Shown: positions 40,580 to 49,789 of the stretch, one piece after another
How positions within the stretch are numbered: the first letter of the stretch is position 1
Layout of the letters: every line of letters starts with the position of its first letter
Source of the DNA: Sphaerochaeta pleomorpha str. Grapes
GTDB lineage: Bacteria > Spirochaetota > Spirochaetia > Sphaerochaetales > Sphaerochaetaceae
Reading direction: 5' to 3'
Assembly: GCF_000236685.1 (NCBI RefSeq)
Contig: NC_016633.1
Coordinates: 434,001 to 498,000 of the forward strand
DNA: 64,000 bases
Position numbers and translations under genes: made by a program
The notes under the pieces: generated by a model
Databases searched by the model: none
Told to the model about the DNA's origin: nothing
Seen by the model: only the letters and a program-made list of their open reading frames with translations

Positions 40580-41209
40580 TCAAATGTCCTTATTTGCGAA
40601 AAAACGCTGGGAAAGCAGCAATGAAGACCCTAACAAAGGCAAAGCAAGGATGCACAACACCCCTGACAAGGCAGTCCCATCAATGCAAGAGGATAGAATA
40701 TTGCCTCCGACAAGCGACACGCCAGCACCAATCCCTGCCAAGAGAGCGAATAGCAAAAGGGTATACCAGAACCTTCCCTTTTCCAGACCCAGCTTAAAGA
40801 AAATAGGATACCCCAAAGAAGTGATGCTTATCCCGATGGCCAATTGCACGGCACATCCACGTAACAATGCCAGGATGGAAGGATTTCCAAATCTGAATAC
40901 ATTCACTACCGAACCTACCAGAAATGTCAAAACAACGGATAACCCGAGACAAAGCAGGGCAAGCACATATTTTTCCCTTACAATGACTGACCGGGAAAAA
41001 GGCAATCCCAATGCGTATCGGTTCCATTTGCTTTTCTCATCATAGCCCATCACCATAACAGGAAGCTTTGTCACGATAATGGCACTGAGAAAAGAAAAAT
41101 ACATTCCTCTACCGATCGCGACGATTGCAAGGGAGACGACAGCCAAGACAATCGTCCATTTTGCTTCTTTCTTAAGAATATACCAGTCTTTTACAAGCAA
41201 TGCATGCAT
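40580..41209 (-). CDS. ABC-2 type transporter permease
   Basis: 209 aa with five to six membrane helices. The start MHALLVKDWYILKK is typical of ABC-2 membrane subunits, where an amphipathic Lys-Asp helix leads the first span. The MVMGYDEKSKWNRYALGLPFSR segment is the cytoplasmic coupling region found in the ABC2_membrane_5 type. It overlaps its ATPase gene by 19 nt, so both subunits are made together. The substrate is unknown; drug, peptide or lipid export is possible for this family. Confidence 0.75.
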   Translation of the reverse strand: MHALLVKDWYILKKEAKWTIVLAVVSLAIVAIGRGMYFSFLSAIIVTKLPVMVMGYDEKSKWNRYALGLPFSRSVIVREKYVLALLCLGLSVVLTFLVGSVVNVFRFGNPSILALLRGCAVQLAIGISITSLGYPIFFKLGLEKGRFWYTLLLFALLAGIGAGVSLVGGNILSSCIDGTALSGVLCILALPLLGSSLLLSQRFFANKDI

Positions 41210-42054
41210 TTCTGTTCCCTACCCTTTGCCATCATCACCATAATCTGTTCGATACCCACCCGTTCGCTTTTTAGAAACGATGGAACCAATTCGCTTTTCA
41301 TCAGGATTTCCTCAAAATACGGCAAAGACCTTACATATAGCATCGAAGATGGCTCCAATTCCTTTTTGCATTCCCCGCTACACCGTACCAGTGCATAGGA
41401 ATCGAGAAGCGTCTCCTTGTCCTGGGAAAACAAAACAGACCCCTCGTGCAGGAACGTGACATAGTCACAGATTTTCTCCAGATCACTGATTATATGAGAA
41501 GAAATGAGAACAGAATGCCTCTCATCTCTGGTATAATCATTGATAATTTCCAAAATCTCGCCACGGACAATAGGGTCGAGCCCCCCAGTCGGTTCATCAA
41601 GAACCAGCAGTTCAGCATCATGAGACAAGGCGACTGCCAGTGCAAGTTTCATTTTCATACCCCTTGAGAATTGCTTGAACATTTTTCCCTTTGGCAGTGC
41701 GAACCTCTCAAGGTAGGCTAAGAACACTTTCGAATCCCAATTGTGGTAACAGTAACCCATGATTGTATCGACTTGAAAACAATTGATGCTATCTGGGAAA
41801 TTGGCTTCATCCAGAACGAAGCCTATCCTCTGCTTGGCTGTCTGGAAGGTAGTCGGATCATCATTTCCAAAGACCTCGATACGGCCCGAGTCAGGATTAA
41901 CCATATGCATTAGCAACTTGACCAAAGTAGTCTTCCCTGCCCCATTCTCACCAACCAAGCCCATGACGGTCCCGCAAGGCAAGGAAAGATCCTGTATCGA
42001 AAATTCGAAACCAGGATATTTCTTTGTAACGGAGTCAAAGTGAAAAGCGTCCAT
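41191..42054 (-). CDS. ABC transporter ATP-binding protein (YtrB/BcrA type)
   Basis: 287 aa from ATG 42054 (AAGGGG 7 nt upstream). The Walker A GENGAGKTT is near residue 37, the signature FSRGMKMKLALA and Walker B LLVLDEPTGGLDP follow, then the H-loop region ISSHIISDLE. The signature is the degenerate FSRGM form usual in exporters of the BcrA/YtrB group. It starts 2 nt after the GntR-type regulator and overlaps the permease, giving a three-gene operon. Confidence 0.9.
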   Translation of the reverse strand: MDAFHFDSVTKKYPGFEFSIQDLSLPCGTVMGLVGENGAGKTTLVKLLMHMVNPDSGRIEVFGNDDPTTFQTAKQRIGFVLDEANFPDSINCFQVDTIMGYCYHNWDSKVFLAYLERFALPKGKMFKQFSRGMKMKLALAVALSHDAELLVLDEPTGGLDPIVRGEILEIINDYTRDERHSVLISSHIISDLEKICDYVTFLHEGSVLFSQDKETLLDSYALVRCSGECKKELEPSSMLYVRSLPYFEEILMKSELVPSFLKSERVGIEQIMVMMAKGREQKCMHCL

Positions 42055-42056
42055 AT

Positions 42057-42431
42057 TCAATCCCCTTCCTTTAAAAGCTGATACATACAGCCAAGCTCCT
42101 CATCACTCAAATCACAGAAATTAGCCAGTAGCAGAATGGAACGCATGTGCTCTTCAATCTGTTTCAGGTATTCTTCCTTGATGTGTTCCTTGTCCCTGGC
42201 TGCCACAAAACAGCCCTTTGAGGCAACCGAATTAATAAACCCCTGCATTTCCAGTTCGTCATAGGCACGCTTGGTCGTTATGACACTGACACGCAAATCT
42301 TTTGCAAGGGCACGTATGGAAGGAAGATTTTCTCCCTCTTTTAACACGCTGGATAAAATCTGTGCCTTAATCTGTTCGGCAATCTGTTCGTAGATCGGCT
42401 GTGAACTGGTGTTGCTAAGTAAGATATGCAG
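42057..42431 (-). CDS. GntR-family (YtrA type) transcriptional regulator, probable CTG start
   Basis: 124 aa if translation begins at CTG 42431, which has a perfect AAGGAGG (42444-42438) 6 nt upstream. A GTG at 42467 is in frame but lies upstream of the predicted transcription start. From CTG the protein reads (M)HILLSNTSSQPIYEQIAEQI, the typical YtrA beginning. The winged helix ends with PSIRALAKDLRVSVITTKRAYDELE. YtrA regulators repress their own operon with an ABC exporter and respond to cell-wall stress in Bacillus. The promoter carries palindromes suitable as its operator. Confidence 0.85.
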   Translation of the reverse strand: MHILLSNTSSQPIYEQIAEQIKAQILSSVLKEGENLPSIRALAKDLRVSVITTKRAYDELEMQGFINSVASKGCFVAARDKEHIKEEYLKQIEEHMRSILLLANFCDLSDEELGCMYQLLKEGD

Positions 42432-42456
42432 GGGCTGCCTCCTTTTCTGTATATAT

Positions 42457-42486
42457 ACAGTACACACAGTATATACATCATGTCAA
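42457..42486 (-). promoter_or_regulatory. Promoter and palindromic operator of the YtrA-type operon
   Basis: On the minus strand TTGACA (42486-42481), 18-bp spacer, TACTGT (42462-42457). A 14-bp perfect palindrome CTGTATATATACAG (42447-42460) overlaps the -10 box and a second GTATATAC (42469-42476) lies in the spacer. This fits autorepression by the GntR protein. Confidence 0.7.
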
Positions 42487-42509
42487 GTATTTCTCTACGG
42501 TTTATATTC

Positions 42510-42538
42510 TTTTCACCCTCCCCTGTTTTGGGTATACT
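42510..42538 (+). promoter_or_regulatory. Candidate promoter abutting the mazG start codon
   Basis: TATACT (42533-42538) lies 6 nt before ATG 42545; the -35 region TTTTCA (42510-42515, 17-bp spacer) is weak. It is back to back with the YtrA-operon promoter. Confidence 0.5.
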
Positions 42539-42544
42539 CTCACT

Positions 42545-43369
42545 ATGATTGAATACACTTACAAGCAGGCAGAAGATTTACAAGCTGCCTTACAACAACT
42601 TTTTGAAATCGTTACGATGCTCCGAAGTCCTGAGGGATGCCCCTGGGACCGGGAGCAGACAACTAAAACCGTAGCTACCTCGCTTATGGACGAAACCTAC
42701 GAATACCTTGATGCCATTAACGCCAATGACACGCAAGGGGCCAGTGAAGAAATCGGCGATGTGATGCTGAATGTCATGCTGTTGCTTGAGATACACAAAG
42801 AACATAATGATTTCGATATTGTCGGCTCCATAAACGGGGTTTGTGAGAAACTGGTCCGCAGGCACCCCCATGTATTCTCAACCGAGCATGCAGAAAACAG
42901 CACGCAGGTGCTTGACCTCTGGAACAAGATAAAAGTTGAGGTTGAAGGCAAGAAAGCCTCGACTGACGATTTTTTCAGCCGTGTCCCCAAATCGCTTCCG
43001 CCTCTCGAAATGGCCAATGAAATCCAGAAGAAAATTCAGAAAGTCGGTTTTGACTGGCCAGGCATACAGGGCGTCGTTGATAAGGTCAAGGAAGAACTGC
43101 AAGAGGTCGTCGAAGCAAATTCCTCTTTAGATCGTTGCCAGGCAGATGTGGAATTGGAAATCGGTGACTTATTGTTCTCGGTAGTCAACCTTGCACGTTA
43201 CCTCCACATCTCCCCGTCTGTTGCCCTGCACAGGTCAAACAGGAAAGTACAGAAACGTTTCAATGAAGTTGCACGCCTCTGCAAAGCTCGCGAGATAACC
43301 TTGTCTGGAGAAAACCTTGCCCAGATGGATGGCATCTGGGACGAAGTCAAAAAGACAGAAAAGCTGTAA
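42545..43369 (+). CDS. mazG: Nucleoside triphosphate pyrophosphohydrolase MazG
   Basis: 274 aa, the double-domain MazG length. It hydrolyses NTPs and dNTPs to monophosphates and pyrophosphate, and can affect ppGpp-related responses. The signature MLRSPEGCPWDREQT is at about residues 25-39. The metal-binding EExxE...ExxD pattern appears as EEIGDVMLNV in the first domain and again as ELEIGDLLFSVVNLAR in the second. There is no Shine-Dalgarno sequence before the ATG. Confidence 0.93.
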   Translation: MIEYTYKQAEDLQAALQQLFEIVTMLRSPEGCPWDREQTTKTVATSLMDETYEYLDAINANDTQGASEEIGDVMLNVMLLLEIHKEHNDFDIVGSINGVCEKLVRRHPHVFSTEHAENSTQVLDLWNKIKVEVEGKKASTDDFFSRVPKSLPPLEMANEIQKKIQKVGFDWPGIQGVVDKVKEELQEVVEANSSLDRCQADVELEIGDLLFSVVNLARYLHISPSVALHRSNRKVQKRFNEVARLCKAREITLSGENLAQMDGIWDEVKKTEKL

Positions 43370-43408
43370 AAAGCCGTCATTGGCCAAGGTAATATACGAT
43401 TATCAGTA

Positions 43409-43437
43409 TTGTTCGCCTTTTGCTATCGTGATACACT
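43409..43437 (+). promoter_or_regulatory. Candidate promoter abutting the BusR-like gene
   Basis: TTGTTC (43409-43414), 17-bp spacer, TACACT (43432-43437), 7 nt before ATG 43445. Transcription would begin at the start codon. Confidence 0.5.
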
Positions 43438-43444
43438 TCCTGCC

Positions 43445-44098
43445 ATGGAAACCGACGAGAAGGAAAAAGGGACAGCCAAACGCAAAAAGCACGAAATTGT
43501 GGCTGTATATGACCGTATCGCTTTTGATATTGCAAACAGGATAGCAAAAGGGGAAATAGCGGAAGGGGCACGTCTCTCCGGCCGGTCTACCATGTCCAGT
43601 GAATACGGGGTTTCCCCTGAAACGATACGGAGAGCCTTTTCCCTTCTGGAAGAAATGGCTGTTGTACTGGTACAGCACAACAGTGGCGTTGTCGTCCTTT
43701 CGCGCGACAATGCAAAAAAATATATCACACGCCACGGAAGCCGAACGGAAACCAGGGTAATCCTTTCCCGTATCAAGGACCTTATAGAGGAACATGAGCG
43801 AATAGACAGGGAACTGTTCAATATAACCAAGGAACTGGTTACGGCAACTGAACGCTTTACCGCAAGCAATCCTTTTTCCCCGTACGAATGCAGCATCAGT
43901 GCCAAATCAAAGGCCCTCGGAAAAACACTTGCCAACCTGAATTTCTGGCAGAAAACCGGAGCTACGGTAATTGCAATTCGGAGAGAGGACTCCATCCTTC
44001 TCTCCCCCGGCCCAGACTTTTCCCTGGCAAAGTCGGATGTGCTGGTTATTGTCGGCGATCTGAAAACCCGCGAACTGGTCCTTGAACTAATCAGCTAA
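43445..44098 (+). CDS. GntR-type winged-helix regulator with C-terminal RCK_C (TrkA_C) domain, BusR-like
   Basis: 217 aa from ATG 43445. Residues about 15-85 form a GntR winged helix (YDRIAFDIANRIAKGEI, then LSGRSTMSSEYGVSPETIRRAFSLLEE). A coiled-coil helix (about 98-135) leads to an RCK_C domain (about 140-217) with GKTLANLNFWQKTGATVIAIRRE and FSLAKSDVLVIVGD. This architecture is that of BusR, the c-di-AMP-binding repressor of osmolyte uptake in Lactococcus and Streptococcus. Ligand binding here is inference from the fold. It lies directly upstream of a Dpp-type importer. A TTG at 43409 is in frame but forms the -35 box. Confidence 0.82.
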   Translation: METDEKEKGTAKRKKHEIVAVYDRIAFDIANRIAKGEIAEGARLSGRSTMSSEYGVSPETIRRAFSLLEEMAVVLVQHNSGVVVLSRDNAKKYITRHGSRTETRVILSRIKDLIEEHERIDRELFNITKELVTATERFTASNPFSPYECSISAKSKALGKTLANLNFWQKTGATVIAIRREDSILLSPGPDFSLAKSDVLVIVGDLKTRELVLELIS

Positions 44099-44434
44099 CC
44101 TATTTCATCGACAATCTTAAATTATACAATTTTATCGTAATGTATAGCACATCTATACATGTCCTAAGCATGTCTGTTGTTGTGCACAATTATCATCTTT
44201 TCGCAATTCTTCATTTTTTCCCACTTTCATACAAAATTTTTTATTGCTTATATTAAATAGTTTTATCAGTGTTTTTCCTGCTCCTTGACAAACTGCCACT
44301 CTCCATATGATAATTAAGTTGTTGGTTCTCGCCATCAATACCACTTCGTTTTTATAGGTTGTCTAACGGTTTTCAACCGACTGCGTCGCAGTATTCATGT
44401 CCAAACCAACATCGATTCATTTAATGGAGGTTAT
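44099..44434 (+). promoter_or_regulatory. 336-bp A+T-rich regulatory gap before the importer operon
   Basis: No gene is seen here. A 21-bp inverted repeat ATGTATAG-CACAT-CTATACAT occupies 44140-44160, with a further TATACA at 44123-44128. A promoter TTGACA (44285-44290), 18 bp, GATAAT (44309-44314) follows. The predicted leader of about 114 nt carries two adjacent small stems, CGGTT-TTC-AACCG (44367-44379) and ACTGC-GTC-GCAGT (44380-44392). AATGGAGG precedes the ATG at 44435. Confidence 0.65.
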
Positions 44435-45946
44435 ATGAAACGTACAATACTAATTCTCGCCCTTATGATGAGTGTCATGCTTGTCCCTCTGTTTGCAACT
44501 GGGGAAAAAGAAGCTGTTACGCAAGAAAAACAGATTCGCATAGCAGAGCAGGTCCCAAATCTCATTACCCCTGGAGTCTGGGATGGCCAAACTTTCTCAT
44601 TGAATTCGTCAATTTATGAATATCTTGTTGAAATCAATCCCGATACCAAGGAATTGGTTCCCGTTCTGGCTACCAGTTGGTCAACAACCGATGGCAAACG
44701 CTGGGAATTCAAACTTCGCCAAGGCGTTACCTTCCAAGATGGTTCTGCTTTTGACTCTGCTGATGTCAAATATACAATCGAAAGAACCCAGGATGAGACT
44801 ATCGGGCATTTGAAGAAACAGGATTTTGCCGTTGTATCCTCAATTGAGACACCGGACAAATTTACGGTCATCCTCAACTTGAAAGAAGCAAGGCCGACTT
44901 TCATCTATCTGATGACCGATTACAACATGCCAATGCTCTCAAGCGATTACGATTATGCAAATCTCGGAGAGAGCAAACCGATGGGTACCGGTCCTTTCAT
45001 ACTGCAGCAGATGATTCCCAAGGAATCGGCAGTTCTTGTTAAGAATGCAAATTATTGGGCCCCAGGCCTTCCGAAGGTCGACAAGCTACTTATTTACTTC
45101 GTACCCGATATCGATGCCAGCGTTTCCATGCTTGAGGCAGGAAAAGTCGATGTCGTCCCTTTCATAACACCTGTTATCAAGCAACGTCTTGAAAGCATCG
45201 GTGGAATATCGGTAATTTCGCCATATCAGGAACATCGTTTCGTTGCAATGGCTGAAAACATGAAACCCTTTGATGACAATCGTGTCCGATTGGCTCTCAA
45301 ATATGCCATGGATCCCCAGATCATTGCAAAAAGCGTAACCCAGATGGACCTTGGAAAGGGTTCGAACTACAATGAGACTCCGCTGCTCAATACCCTCTCC
45401 CAATACAAGGAAATGCCTTTACGTGGTCAAGATATTGCAAAAGCAAAAGCCTTGCTGAGTGAAGCCGGGTATCCAAACGGCGTAACCGTTGAATTGTACT
45501 TCGCTTCGGATCATCCGTTCGGCAAAGAACTTGCCCAGACCATCAAAGAGCTTGCAGCACCTGCTGGATTTACCATTAACCTCAAGGGCTATCCCCGTGA
45601 CGTCTATTTGACCCAGTATTGGTTGAACGTTCCCTTCTGTATTACAGGTTGGGGCGGAAGAATCGATCCATCCATGTTACTTGCCTATGCATTCAAATCG
45701 ACGGGTCCTTGGAATGAATCACACATGAACAATGCCAAAGTCGATGAGCTGATCAATAAGATATCTGCAGAGGTTAACGACGCCAAAAGGAATGAATACT
45801 ATCATGAGTTGCAGGACATTTTCTATGAAGAAGGTACTGTTCTGAATGTACAGGTCCCTTATTTGGTTGCCATCAGTGATAAGGTTGTTGGCTATAAGCA
45901 GCCTTTGACAATGCTGCCACAATACAAATACACCGATATAAAATGA
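44435..45946 (+). CDS. ABC transporter substrate-binding protein, peptide/nickel family 5
   Basis: 503 aa. A signal peptide (about 1-21, ending LVPLFATG) is followed directly by EKEAVTQEK. The SBP_bac_5 fold is shown by VPVLATSWSTTDGKRWEFKLRQGVTFQDGSAFDSADVKYTIER-type sequence and the C-terminal DEGTVLN-like hydrophobic block. It delivers a ligand to the two permeases encoded next. The family includes di- and oligopeptide, nickel and sugar importers, and the ligand cannot be read from sequence. Its stop overlaps the first permease gene. Confidence 0.9.
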   Translation: MKRTILILALMMSVMLVPLFATGEKEAVTQEKQIRIAEQVPNLITPGVWDGQTFSLNSSIYEYLVEINPDTKELVPVLATSWSTTDGKRWEFKLRQGVTFQDGSAFDSADVKYTIERTQDETIGHLKKQDFAVVSSIETPDKFTVILNLKEARPTFIYLMTDYNMPMLSSDYDYANLGESKPMGTGPFILQQMIPKESAVLVKNANYWAPGLPKVDKLLIYFVPDIDASVSMLEAGKVDVVPFITPVIKQRLESIGGISVISPYQEHRFVAMAENMKPFDDNRVRLALKYAMDPQIIAKSVTQMDLGKGSNYNETPLLNTLSQYKEMPLRGQDIAKAKALLSEAGYPNGVTVELYFASDHPFGKELAQTIKELAAPAGFTINLKGYPRDVYLTQYWLNVPFCITGWGGRIDPSMLLAYAFKSTGPWNESHMNNAKVDELINKISAEVNDAKRNEYYHELQDIFYEEGTVLNVQVPYLVAISDKVVGYKQPLTMLPQYKYTDIK

Positions 45947-46911
45947 ATAGAACAGCATCAATATTTCTAAAAAGGCTAGGGTCACTTTTAGTGACCCTGG
46001 TAATTATGTCTCTCATTATTTTCCTCTTGGTTGAGATTATGCCCGGAGATGTCGCACAGATGATTCTCGGGCAGAGTGCTACACCCGAGGCGGTTCATGC
46101 CCTCAGGGAAGCCCGCGGGTTGAACGACCCTGTCATGATACGTTATTTCCGCTGGGTAACCGGTGTAATACGTGGTGACCTTGGCGATTCAATCTATATG
46201 CAAGGGGTTTCGATTAACTCGATCCTCTGGCGTAAAGTAGGACATTCTTTGATCCTTGCACTGACCGCCTTCATTATTTTCGTCCCATTATCCATTGTCT
46301 TGGGAGTTTTGGCCGGGGTAAAAAAAGAAAAACCCACCGACTCAATCATTTCTTTCCTTGGCTTGGCTACCATGGCCTTGCCAGAATTTGTTTCAGGTGT
46401 ATTTCTCATTACCATTTTCGGAGTGCAACTGAAATGGCTTCCCATAGTCAGTATTATCCCCATCGGGGAATCACTGTTCGAAAACCTTAACATACTGCTT
46501 CTCCCTGCCCTTTCCATTACCTTTGTAATGTTCGGATATGTATCGAGGATGCAACGCTCCTCCATGATCCAGGTATTGGATTCAGACTACGTCCGTGCAG
46601 CGATTTTAAAAGGAATGCCCAGAAGATATGTCATTTTTCGGCATGCATTAAAGAATGCCCTGCTACCTACCATCACCATCATCGGGATGAACATCGGCTG
46701 GCTATTCGGAGGCCTTGTCGTGGTTGAAACGCTCTTTGGGTTCCCCGGCATGGGTTCACTGCTCATGACCGCCATCAAGACACGCGATGTCCCGCTTATA
46801 GAAGCCTGCGTTTTGCTGATAACTGTTATTTATTCACTCTCAACCATGATTACAGATATGCTTTACAGTTATCTGAATCCTAGAATCAGGTTTGCCGGAG
46901 GTCAAAAATGA
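45943..46911 (+). CDS. ABC transporter permease, DppB/OppB type
   Basis: 322 aa, six membrane helices. The first span is LGSLLVTLVIMSLIIFLLVEIMPGD, with the family's PGD motif. The EAA loop appears as SDYVRAAILKGMPRRYVIFRHALKNALLP. It forms a heterodimer with the DppC-type permease. Both ends overlap neighbours by ATGA, giving tightly coupled translation. Confidence 0.93.
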   Translation: MNRTASIFLKRLGSLLVTLVIMSLIIFLLVEIMPGDVAQMILGQSATPEAVHALREARGLNDPVMIRYFRWVTGVIRGDLGDSIYMQGVSINSILWRKVGHSLILALTAFIIFVPLSIVLGVLAGVKKEKPTDSIISFLGLATMALPEFVSGVFLITIFGVQLKWLPIVSIIPIGESLFENLNILLLPALSITFVMFGYVSRMQRSSMIQVLDSDYVRAAILKGMPRRYVIFRHALKNALLPTITIIGMNIGWLFGGLVVVETLFGFPGMGSLLMTAIKTRDVPLIEACVLLITVIYSLSTMITDMLYSYLNPRIRFAGGQK

Positions 46912-47738
46912 AATACCTTTGGTATCAAATGAAAAAACATCCCCTTTCGTTTTTCGGAATAGCAATCATAGTGATATGGGTAATCCTGGCACTATTCGGA
47001 CCTTCTATGCTTTCGTTCAGTTTTACCGAAATGGATTCAACCAACCAAATGATAGCCCCGGGACATGCAGGACATCTTTTTGGAACCGATAGTCTTGGAC
47101 GGGATATCCTATCCCGTATCGTCTACGGTAGCCGGTCGATCCTTACGGTCGCCTTGATGACTTCGATTATTTCCACATGCATTGGTGTTATCCTTGGTTT
47201 CATGGCAGGGTATTTCGGAGGAAATATTGATTTCATATTCCTCAGGGTTATGGATGTGCTCATGGCTATCCCCCCTTTGGTTTTGGCCATGGTTGTTCTG
47301 GGGATACTGGGGGATTCATCAATAGTTTCCCTTACCCTAATCGTATCCATTGCTTTTGTGCCTGCAACGGCAAGGGTTTCCAGAGGTGTGCTCCTTACCG
47401 AGAAAAGCCATGAATATGTTTCTGCTGCGAGGATTCGGGGAGAAAGCAATCTCTATATTATGTTTGTCGAGATTCTTCCCAATACCACTGGACCAATCAT
47501 CGTTGAGGCTACTGCCCGTTTCGCTTATTCAATCATGATGGTAGCATCCCTTGGATTCCTTGGGGTTGGGCTGCAACCACCTACACCTGACTGGGGTATG
47601 ATGGTCATTGAAAACAAAGCCATCATCTCACAGGCACCCTGGGCCGTATTGTTCCCTGCCCTAGCCATTGCCTCCCTGGTTATCGCAATTTCGATTTTCT
47701 CTGACTTTGTCAGCAAGGTACTCATACATGAACGATAA
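46908..47738 (+). CDS. ABC transporter permease, DppC/OppC type
   Basis: 276 aa. The N-terminal cytoplasmic OppC_N segment and first helix are followed by the family mark HLFGTDSLGRDILSRIVYGSR. Five further helices and the EAA loop (EYVSAARIRGESNLYIMFVEILPN) complete the protein. Its last 11 nt overlap the fused ATPase gene. Confidence 0.93.
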   Translation: MKYLWYQMKKHPLSFFGIAIIVIWVILALFGPSMLSFSFTEMDSTNQMIAPGHAGHLFGTDSLGRDILSRIVYGSRSILTVALMTSIISTCIGVILGFMAGYFGGNIDFIFLRVMDVLMAIPPLVLAMVVLGILGDSSIVSLTLIVSIAFVPATARVSRGVLLTEKSHEYVSAARIRGESNLYIMFVEILPNTTGPIIVEATARFAYSIMMVASLGFLGVGLQPPTPDWGMMVIENKAIISQAPWAVLFPALAIASLVIAISIFSDFVSKVLIHER

Positions 47739-49734
47739 TATACTGGATATTGAACATTTGAATGTTTCTTTCAAAACCTTTGAAGGCGAGTTTGCAGCCG
47801 TACGGGATGTCTCCCTTTCCCTCGCTCTTGATGAATCCATCGGAATCATCGGAGAAAGCGGATGCGGGAAAAGCACCCTTGCCTACTCGATCATGCGATA
47901 TGTTGCCAGCAACGCGGTCGTTGAAGGTGCAATCAAATTCAAAGGTGAAAACCTTCTGGAGAAATCGGAACAGGAAATGAGCTCATTCCGCGGTAACCGT
48001 ATCGCAATGGTCTATCAAAATCCGTCATCATCGCTTAACCCTGCCCTCACCATCGGGTTCCAACTCGATGAAGTCGGTATATTCCATCAGAAACTTTCCA
48101 AGGAAAAAGCAAGGAAAGCATCCCTTGAAGCCTTGAAAATGATGAATATTGGCGACCCGAAAGGCATCGTACGCCGATATCCCCATCAGATCAGTGGAGG
48201 TATCCAGCAACGTATCTGTATTGCCATGGCTATCCTATGCCGTCCCGACCTCATGATACTTGATGAACCTACCACTGCCTTGGATGTTACCACTGAGGCA
48301 ATCATCCTTGACTCGATCAATAAGCTCAGGGAAAAACTCCATATGTCCCTCATTTACATTTCCCATGATATGGGTGTCATCAACAAGGTCTCCGACCAAG
48401 TCGTAGTGATGTACAATGGAGAAATCGTTGAACAGGGACCAAAAGAAAAGATCTTTGAACACCCCTTCCATCCCTACTCCCGGGCATTGATCAACTGCAT
48501 GCCCCGCGGAGGTATAGTCAAAGAGAATACACGGCTCAATACTATCCCCGGGTATGTAAAACGACGCGGTATCATCGAAAGCGGTTGTCCCTATGCAGAC
48601 CGATGCGACCAGCATACCCCTACCTGTGAGAGTATGCTCATGTTCAGACAAGTTGATAATCTTCATTATGCATCCTGTGACCGGGCTTATGCTAAAGATG
48701 GCGAAGAGCTGGTTATCAAAAAAAGAACACCAAGGAAAAGAATTCCCAAACATATAGAAGAGACAGAGGACAACGAACCGTTGCTTGAAATCCTTAATTT
48801 GAACAAAGTATATGGGTCCCTTCGCAAGGTGTATGCTGTCAATGACATCTCCGTCTCAGTAAAAAGCGGAACAGTATTGGGAATAGTAGGGGAATCAGGA
48901 TGCGGGAAATCGACTACGGGCCATATGGTTTCGGGGTTATTCAAACCGACTAAGGGTAAGATTTTGTTTGAAGGTAAAGATATTTCGATTGCCTGGAACA
49001 AACGTTCTGCTGAAACACTGAAAGATATCCAGTTGATTTTCCAAAACCCCGGAAGAAGCCTAAACCCTTCCCATACGGTGGAACAAATTATTGCCAGGCC
49101 GATGAAACGCCTTTCCAAAATCAACTCAGCTGCCGAACGACGCAAGCTTATCGTCTCACTGCTTAATAAAGTCGACCTTGGCGAAGAATACCTACTCAAA
49201 AAACCAAACCAGCTAAGTGGAGGCGAACAACAGCGCGTAGCTATCGCCAGGGCTCTTTCCATATCCCCAAAATTGATTGTCTGTGACGAACCTACCAGTG
49301 CGCTGGATGTTTCCGTACAGGCTTCAGTGTTGAACTTGCTCAATGACCTGCAGATCGATACTCAGATTACCTATCTTTTCATCTCCCATGATTTGAATGT
49401 AATCAATTATCTCAGTGATACCATCATGGTCATGTACGCAGGCAAGATTTGTGAATTCGGGACCCGTGACGAAGTCATGGCACCCCCCTACCACCCCTAT
49501 ACAGAAGCCTTGCTTTCTGCGATTCCAGAGGTGGACCCGACCAAGAAAAAAGACCCCATCAGGCTTGAAGGCTCCTTGCCGAATCCTGGCAAGAAACAGA
49601 AAGGTTGCCCGTTTGCAAGCAGATGTCCTCGTAAGGTTGGGGCAATCTGTTCCAATGTGTATCCGCCGATGGTTAAACTTAGTGACTCACATTATTATTA
49701 TTGCCACATCAAACCGGGACCGAAGCAGGATTAA
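47728..49734 (+). CDS. Fused double ATPase of the Dpp/Opp importer (DppD-DppF)
   Basis: 668 aa from ATG 47728; upstream in-frame codons lie in the dppC frame overlap. Two complete ABC domains sit in one chain. The first has GESGCGKSTLAYS at about residue 39, signature ISGGIQQR (Gln for the usual Met) and LMILDEPTTALDVT. The second has GESGCGKSTTGHM near 390, LSGGEQQRVAIARAL and LIVCDEPTSALDVS. Each ends in an oligopeptide-type cysteine motif (CPYADRCDQHTPTC and CPFASRCPRKVGAIC), the kind that binds an iron-sulfur cluster in DppD/DppF. It energises the two permeases. Confidence 0.93.
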   Translation: MNDNILDIEHLNVSFKTFEGEFAAVRDVSLSLALDESIGIIGESGCGKSTLAYSIMRYVASNAVVEGAIKFKGENLLEKSEQEMSSFRGNRIAMVYQNPSSSLNPALTIGFQLDEVGIFHQKLSKEKARKASLEALKMMNIGDPKGIVRRYPHQISGGIQQRICIAMAILCRPDLMILDEPTTALDVTTEAIILDSINKLREKLHMSLIYISHDMGVINKVSDQVVVMYNGEIVEQGPKEKIFEHPFHPYSRALINCMPRGGIVKENTRLNTIPGYVKRRGIIESGCPYADRCDQHTPTCESMLMFRQVDNLHYASCDRAYAKDGEELVIKKRTPRKRIPKHIEETEDNEPLLEILNLNKVYGSLRKVYAVNDISVSVKSGTVLGIVGESGCGKSTTGHMVSGLFKPTKGKILFEGKDISIAWNKRSAETLKDIQLIFQNPGRSLNPSHTVEQIIARPMKRLSKINSAAERRKLIVSLLNKVDLGEEYLLKKPNQLSGGEQQRVAIARALSISPKLIVCDEPTSALDVSVQASVLNLLNDLQIDTQITYLFISHDLNVINYLSDTIMVMYAGKICEFGTRDEVMAPPYHPYTEALLSAIPEVDPTKKKDPIRLEGSLPNPGKKQKGCPFASRCPRKVGAICSNVYPPMVKLSDSHYYYCHIKPGPKQD

Positions 49735-49750: not shown

Positions 49751-49789
49751 TACAACGAAGGTTCGGCTATTAGCCGAACCTTCGTTGTA
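49751..49789. terminator. Bidirectional terminator between convergent operons
   Basis: A 19-bp perfect inverted repeat with one central base: TACAACGAAGGTTCGGCTA (49751-49769) and its complement (49771-49789). It lies 16 nt after the ATPase stop and 45 nt after the radical SAM stop on the other strand. Confidence 0.85.

Follow-up and report, generated by a model that had tools for sequence, protein, structure and literature searches.

The systems closest to the locus analysed here are those of BusR in S. agalactiae (structures 7b5t, 7b5y, and 7oz3), S. mutans (7wjg), and Lactococcus lactis; the family of this protein is already known, and so is the way it works. DarR and DasR, two other transcription factors, have TetR- and GntR/HutC-type folds, respectively, and lack an RCK_C domain. 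Both have been reported to bind c-di-AMP (PMC10636190, PMC11076491). The operator published for BusR is GAC-N22-GTC (PMC8517857), and the L. lactis protein responds to ionic strength as well (PMC10243994). Mutations also connect c-di-AMP with peptide uptake: opp mutations offset a lack of c-di-AMP in L. monocytogenes and S. agalactiae, and a cdaA mutant of the spirochaete Borrelia turicatae acquired a mutation in oppB; oligopeptides have been suggested as osmolytes in that organism. In the open-licence PMC papers searched, we found no pathway of transcriptional control leading from c-di-AMP to a peptide importer, nor any description of a peptide-type importer under a BusR operator, of BusR in spirochaetes, or of an exchange of client. 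The locus described here lies in a 64,000-nucleotide stretch of the Sphaerochaeta pleomorpha genome (hereafter the window) and encodes a BusR-type regulator that is probably a c-di-AMP-dependent repressor of the adjacent Opp/Gsi-like importer.

The regulator gene (busR-like, 43445..44098, + strand) encodes a protein of 217 aa in which Pfam recognizes a GntR domain (residues 22-84, E 1.1e-9) and a TrkA_C/RCK_C domain (residues 150-214, E 1.1e-12). An AF2 model built from the window protein and two relatives (mean pLDDT 79.7) consists of a winged helix (residues 19-84), a single long helix (87-141), and an RCK_C domain (146-217), so that the fusion of winged helix and RCK_C read from the DNA by the first-pass annotation is borne out by both approaches. 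Its comparison with BusR also holds: the best solved relatives in phmmer searches are S. agalactiae BusR 7b5t (E 5.9e-36) and S. mutans BusR 7wjg (E 6e-33), which are the only solved homologues aligned over the full length, the later matches spanning a single domain. When the model is submitted to Foldseek, ranks 1-13 are all BusR chains, and the modelled RCK_C domain superposes at 1.2-1.5 Å onto the BusR c-di-AMP complex; the overall TM-scores are low because the domain orientations differ. By its sequence and predicted structure, the regulator is a BusR-type (GntR + RCK_C) homologue. The gene mazG (42545..43369, + strand), a constant upstream neighbour of busR across the family, stands outside the mechanism that we propose. 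Further upstream, the - strand carries at 40580-42467 a second GntR gene (YtrA/PmtR-like), accompanied by an ABC exporter pair similar to PmtAB, the PSM exporter, and the gap between this locus and mazG holds TATATATACAGTACACACAGTATATACAT, which is probably the operator of that second GntR protein itself and of which a similar version, ACAGTATATACAG, recurs in relatives.

We mapped the published BusR pocket (PMC8517857) onto 20 members of the family. Positions W159, T165, G180, and P181 are invariant, A164 is kept in 18 of the 20 sequences, and I166 is V or I, which means that the adenine-facing residues are retained. I153 has become L in the family, and the window protein has A163 at the position of BusR G154; overall, the pocket core is conserved or conservatively changed, with the exception of V158, replaced by F, and of this A163 for G154. 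The RCK_C domain might sense another ligand, such as ionic strength, K+, or another nucleotide, and exert osmotic control without c-di-AMP. The replacement of V158 by F in all members, of the rim residue H160 by Q in 19 of 20, the variability of N157, the loss of F182, and the ionic-strength response of L. lactis BusR would agree with such a sensor, but the retention of the adenine-facing residues argues against it, as do the diadenylate cyclase (DAC) domain and the PgpH-type phosphodiesterase (7TMR-HDED protein) encoded in the same genome, and we consider it quite improbable. In the reading that we favour, the regulator would bind c-di-AMP as BusR does. Within the autoinhibition patch Y13-W159-P181-F182, the Y, W, and P are invariant and the F182 position is occupied by D, L, K, Y, E, or H; the F182 lock of BusR has no conserved counterpart in the family of the window protein. 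The DNA-contact changes K36 to S, K54 to R, and G70 to N are fixed or nearly fixed family-wide and, like the missing F182, count against the repressor model. All 22 sequences, BusR included, have 82 residues between wing and pocket, so that the molecular ruler is expected to be equal in length to that of BusR.

The importer comprises four + strand genes (44435-49734), the first of which starts 336 bp after the regulator ORF, as the first-pass annotation had counted. They encode a family-5 substrate-binding protein (SBP; 44435..45946, Pfam SBP_bac_5 E 1.7e-75), an OppB-like permease (45943..46911), an OppC-like permease (46908..47738), both assigned by Pfam, and a fused double ATPase corresponding to OppD and OppF in a single chain (47728..49734), with two ABC_tran and two oligo_HPY stretches and an NCBIfam assignment. 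The Opp/Gsi-type make-up (SBP_bac_5, two BPD_transp_1 permeases, two ABC/oligo_HPY domains) is complete, and OppB orthologues 72-88% identical occur in 16 genomes. Pfam agrees with the earlier reading of the neighbour as a family-5 ABC importer: the adjacent target is of the SBP_bac_5/Opp type and not a glycine betaine importer (BusAB/OpuA). A betaine importer as target is a trait of the described BusR members, not of the protein family. The nearest solved relatives of the SBP are 5u4o and YliB/GsiB 1uqw, and the solute would be a peptide or a similar compound. Downstream, between the convergent genes for the fused ATPase and a radical-SAM-like protein, an inverted repeat whose perfect 19-nt arms enclose a 1-nt loop (49751-49789) is a probable bidirectional terminator.

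The 336-bp gap between regulator and importer contains two candidate sites for the regulator. The first-pass annotation had singled out the inverted repeat ATGTATAG-CACAT-CTATACAT, which we located exactly where it was reported (44140-44160), together with a further TATACA at 44123. This repeat has perfect 8-nt arms and lies in the right gap, but it precedes the promoter by about 130 bp, it is one of 260 inverted repeats of the window (arms of at least 8 nt, at most 12 nt apart), and the best counterparts in the homologous gaps of relatives have 5-7 mismatches out of 16, the level of shuffled sequences. Since conservation among relatives, the yardstick proposed with the repeat itself, is lacking in every homologous gap, we rejected it as an operator, and a regulator working through it is extremely improbable. 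The same comparison revealed a conserved BusR-like bipartite site, within an element (44285-44327) that the first-pass annotation had passed over. The element contains a strong sigma-70-type promoter (44285..44314, + strand) with TTGACA (44285-44290) and GATAAT (44309-44314) separated by 18 nt, which matches 11 of 12 consensus bases and is conserved in relatives. The likely BusR operator, as judged from sequence, is AACTGCCA-N21-TGTTGGTT (44291..44327, + strand), equivalent to GCC-N23-GTT, and straddles this promoter: its left half-site AACTGCCA (44291..44298) lies between the -35 and -10 boxes and its right half-site TGTTGGTT (44320..44327), TGTCGG in nearly all relatives, just 3' of the -10 box. 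In relatives, the element reads TTGACAAACTGMCA...TTTAATAARGTTGTCGGTT; the site of G016 is exactly GAC-N22-GTC and others have GAC-N23-GTC, the spacing being 22-23 bp and mostly 23. No other site in the set is as degenerate as that of S. pleomorpha, whose score against the symmetric consensus, 11/16, is not significant when taken alone (p=0.25); the case for it rests on conservation. Both this degeneracy and the prevailing spacing of 23 speak against the operator assignment. An Rfam search of 42000-45000 for a riboswitch in the leader gave no match.

A regular-expression scan retrieved 20 sites in 18 genomes, all of the form GMC-N22/23-GTY and all at the importer cassette. The strict pattern has a single match in the 3.59 Mb of the S. 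pleomorpha genome and one match per genome in 16 of 24 genomes (23 with BusR plus G014), with zero matches for the reversed-pattern control. Whereas busR follows mazG throughout the family, the importer is found beside busR in only part of it: in eight genomes (G001, G003, G010, G012, G017, G019, G025, and G004) busR is not linked to the cassette, and the element is kept at the same position as in the linked relatives. In a scan of 393 spirochaete genomes, the motif occurred in five, four of them among the nine with BusR, the fifth match lying inside a 494-codon frame; the hypergeometric value for this overlap (6e-7) cannot be taken at face value as independent evidence, since the pattern had been defined with the help of three of these four genomes and all four belong to one family. 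As the scan pattern was partly derived from the same genomes, the independent matches are only those of G387, of the OpuC sites described below, and of three distant loci. The 44285-44327 element could conceivably be bound by a different regulator, with BusR a mere neighbour. Proximity by itself is weak evidence, and G014 has the site although its assembly, fragmented into ~550 contigs, yielded no BusR; nevertheless, the site fits the BusR rule and persists where busR is unlinked, it is missing from the cassette homologues of the BusR-less genomes G050 and G051 (OppB 72-74% identical), and the same motif recurs at the OpuC promoters of BusR genomes devoid of the cassette, all of which makes another regulator highly improbable. 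The site is likewise missing from the first SBP copy of G020, which is decayed, with in-frame stops near its start (L037 1150-1420); an intact-looking operator is present on another contig of that genome. In G039, a second BusR-like operator (L039, about 7940) occupies the 314-bp gap from the SBP gene to oppB, perhaps as the scar of a lost second SBP.

Three complete genomes with BusR (G002, G005, and G018) have no peptide-type cassette, and each contains an OpuC-type operon encoding a ProV-like ATPase with CBS domains and an OpuAC/OsmF-like SBP. This operon is preceded by GACAACTTATATATTACTATTAGGTTGTC, an exact GAC-N23-GTC of the form GACAACTT-N13-AGGTTGTC, identical in these three genomes and in G004, where OpuC and the peptide-type importer are each preceded by the operator; the OpuC-operon site scores 15/16, and none of 1000 shuffles was as good. 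These operators were located only through inspection of OpuAC operons: in the cassette-less genomes, the loose motif CGACAA-N-TGNCA gave counts at or modestly above the control, and a fuzzy motif with three mismatches allowed gave nothing in the same genomes. A candidate before an MFS-type transporter gene in G005 and G018 was dropped, as it overlaps the end of the coding sequence of the preceding gene. At the OpuAC loci examined in cassette-bearing genomes, no operator rose above background. In G019, a frame that begins like Cas9 (LGLDIGTASVGWAVT; L162 1-2145) adjoins an OpuAC operon. The OpuAC search found no match in the S. pleomorpha genome itself (G000), in G006, G039, and G041, or in G422, which lies outside the family; in having no OpuAC-type (betaine) binding protein, S. 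pleomorpha differs from most of its relatives. Outside the family, BusR adjoins an amino-acid importer (G422), an OpuC importer (G421), and an operon of OpuA and an amino-acid importer (G324), and all these importers have matching inverted repeats with 22-23 bp spacing. In G422, two GAC-N23-GTC sites stand in tandem 35 bp apart (L143 7485 and 7520) before a family-3 amino-acid importer, an arrangement that recalls pAB1/pAB2 of busAB.

The client of BusR-type regulators, as read from these sites, varies among betaine, amino-acid, and peptide-type importers, which the regulators would bind upstream of and repress. The BusR tree groups the client labels in clusters and singles out no ancestral client. 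The simplest reading is a c-di-AMP-activated repressor acting on one promoter per genome, with a client importer that varies by lineage. We see an even chance that the Sphaerochaetaceae switched client, their single BusR promoter per genome being placed on OpuC or on the peptide-type importer (both in G004), and that, in lineages without a betaine-type binding protein, among them that of S. pleomorpha, the peptide-type importer serves for the osmolyte uptake restrained by c-di-AMP. The importer might instead be purely nutritional, for peptides or for nickel or glutathione, with a control that tracks amino-acid supply and not osmotic balance. The matches of the SBP, scattered over nickel, glutathione, and dipeptide families and all below the curated cut-offs, leave room for this, but the same regulator and operator type at the betaine importers of sister genomes and the lack of an OpuAC gene in S. 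pleomorpha itself speak against it, and we regard a purely nutritional role as rather unlikely.

Under the c-di-AMP-dependent repression that we favour, high c-di-AMP would free the tetramer from autoinhibition, and its winged helices, which the coiled coil would keep at a distance of three DNA turns, would each settle on one half-site (44291-44298 and 44320-44327). The bound tetramer would cover the -10 region and the start site and switch off the uptake of the solute, a peptide or a similar compound; a fall in turgor would lower c-di-AMP, repression would be lifted, and the solute would be imported, presumably for osmotic purposes. We infer repression and not activation because BusR represses and because the site covers the -10 region. 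The proposal made in the first-pass annotation, a c-di-AMP-controlled importer in a spirochaete, is well supported in its outline by the sequence and the model, by the conserved pocket, and by the comparison of genomes, with ligand binding and repression as its predicted steps. A peptide-type importer fits as client, since opp mutations compensate for c-di-AMP loss in other bacteria. If BusR directly represses the cassette, the link between c-di-AMP and peptide importers would be explained in at least one lineage, transcriptional control by c-di-AMP would reach the spirochaetes, and the exchange of betaine for peptide clients would show the rewiring of a second-messenger regulon.

The window protein shares with BusR the GntR winged helix, a coiled coil of equal length, and an RCK_C domain with the core of the c-di-AMP pocket, and the two systems have in common a bipartite inverted operator, predicted in our case, that overlaps the promoter. 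They differ in sequence (31-34% identity), in the spirochaete host, in the operator spacing, mostly 23 in the family of the window protein versus the published 22, and in the client, which is BusAB in the described members and a peptide-type importer here. With the OpuC operons of G002, G005, G018, and G004, the S. pleomorpha system shares a regulator of the same family and the same operator architecture, although their client is a betaine-type importer, the classical target class. Like DarR and DasR, the window protein belongs among the transcription factors for which c-di-AMP is the reported or, here, the predicted ligand. As for the importer, it has the SBP_bac_5 protein, the OppB and OppC permeases, and the fused double ATPase (as in GsiA/YejF) of Opp/Gsi-type peptide importers but, unlike the known ones, it sits under a predicted BusR-type operator.
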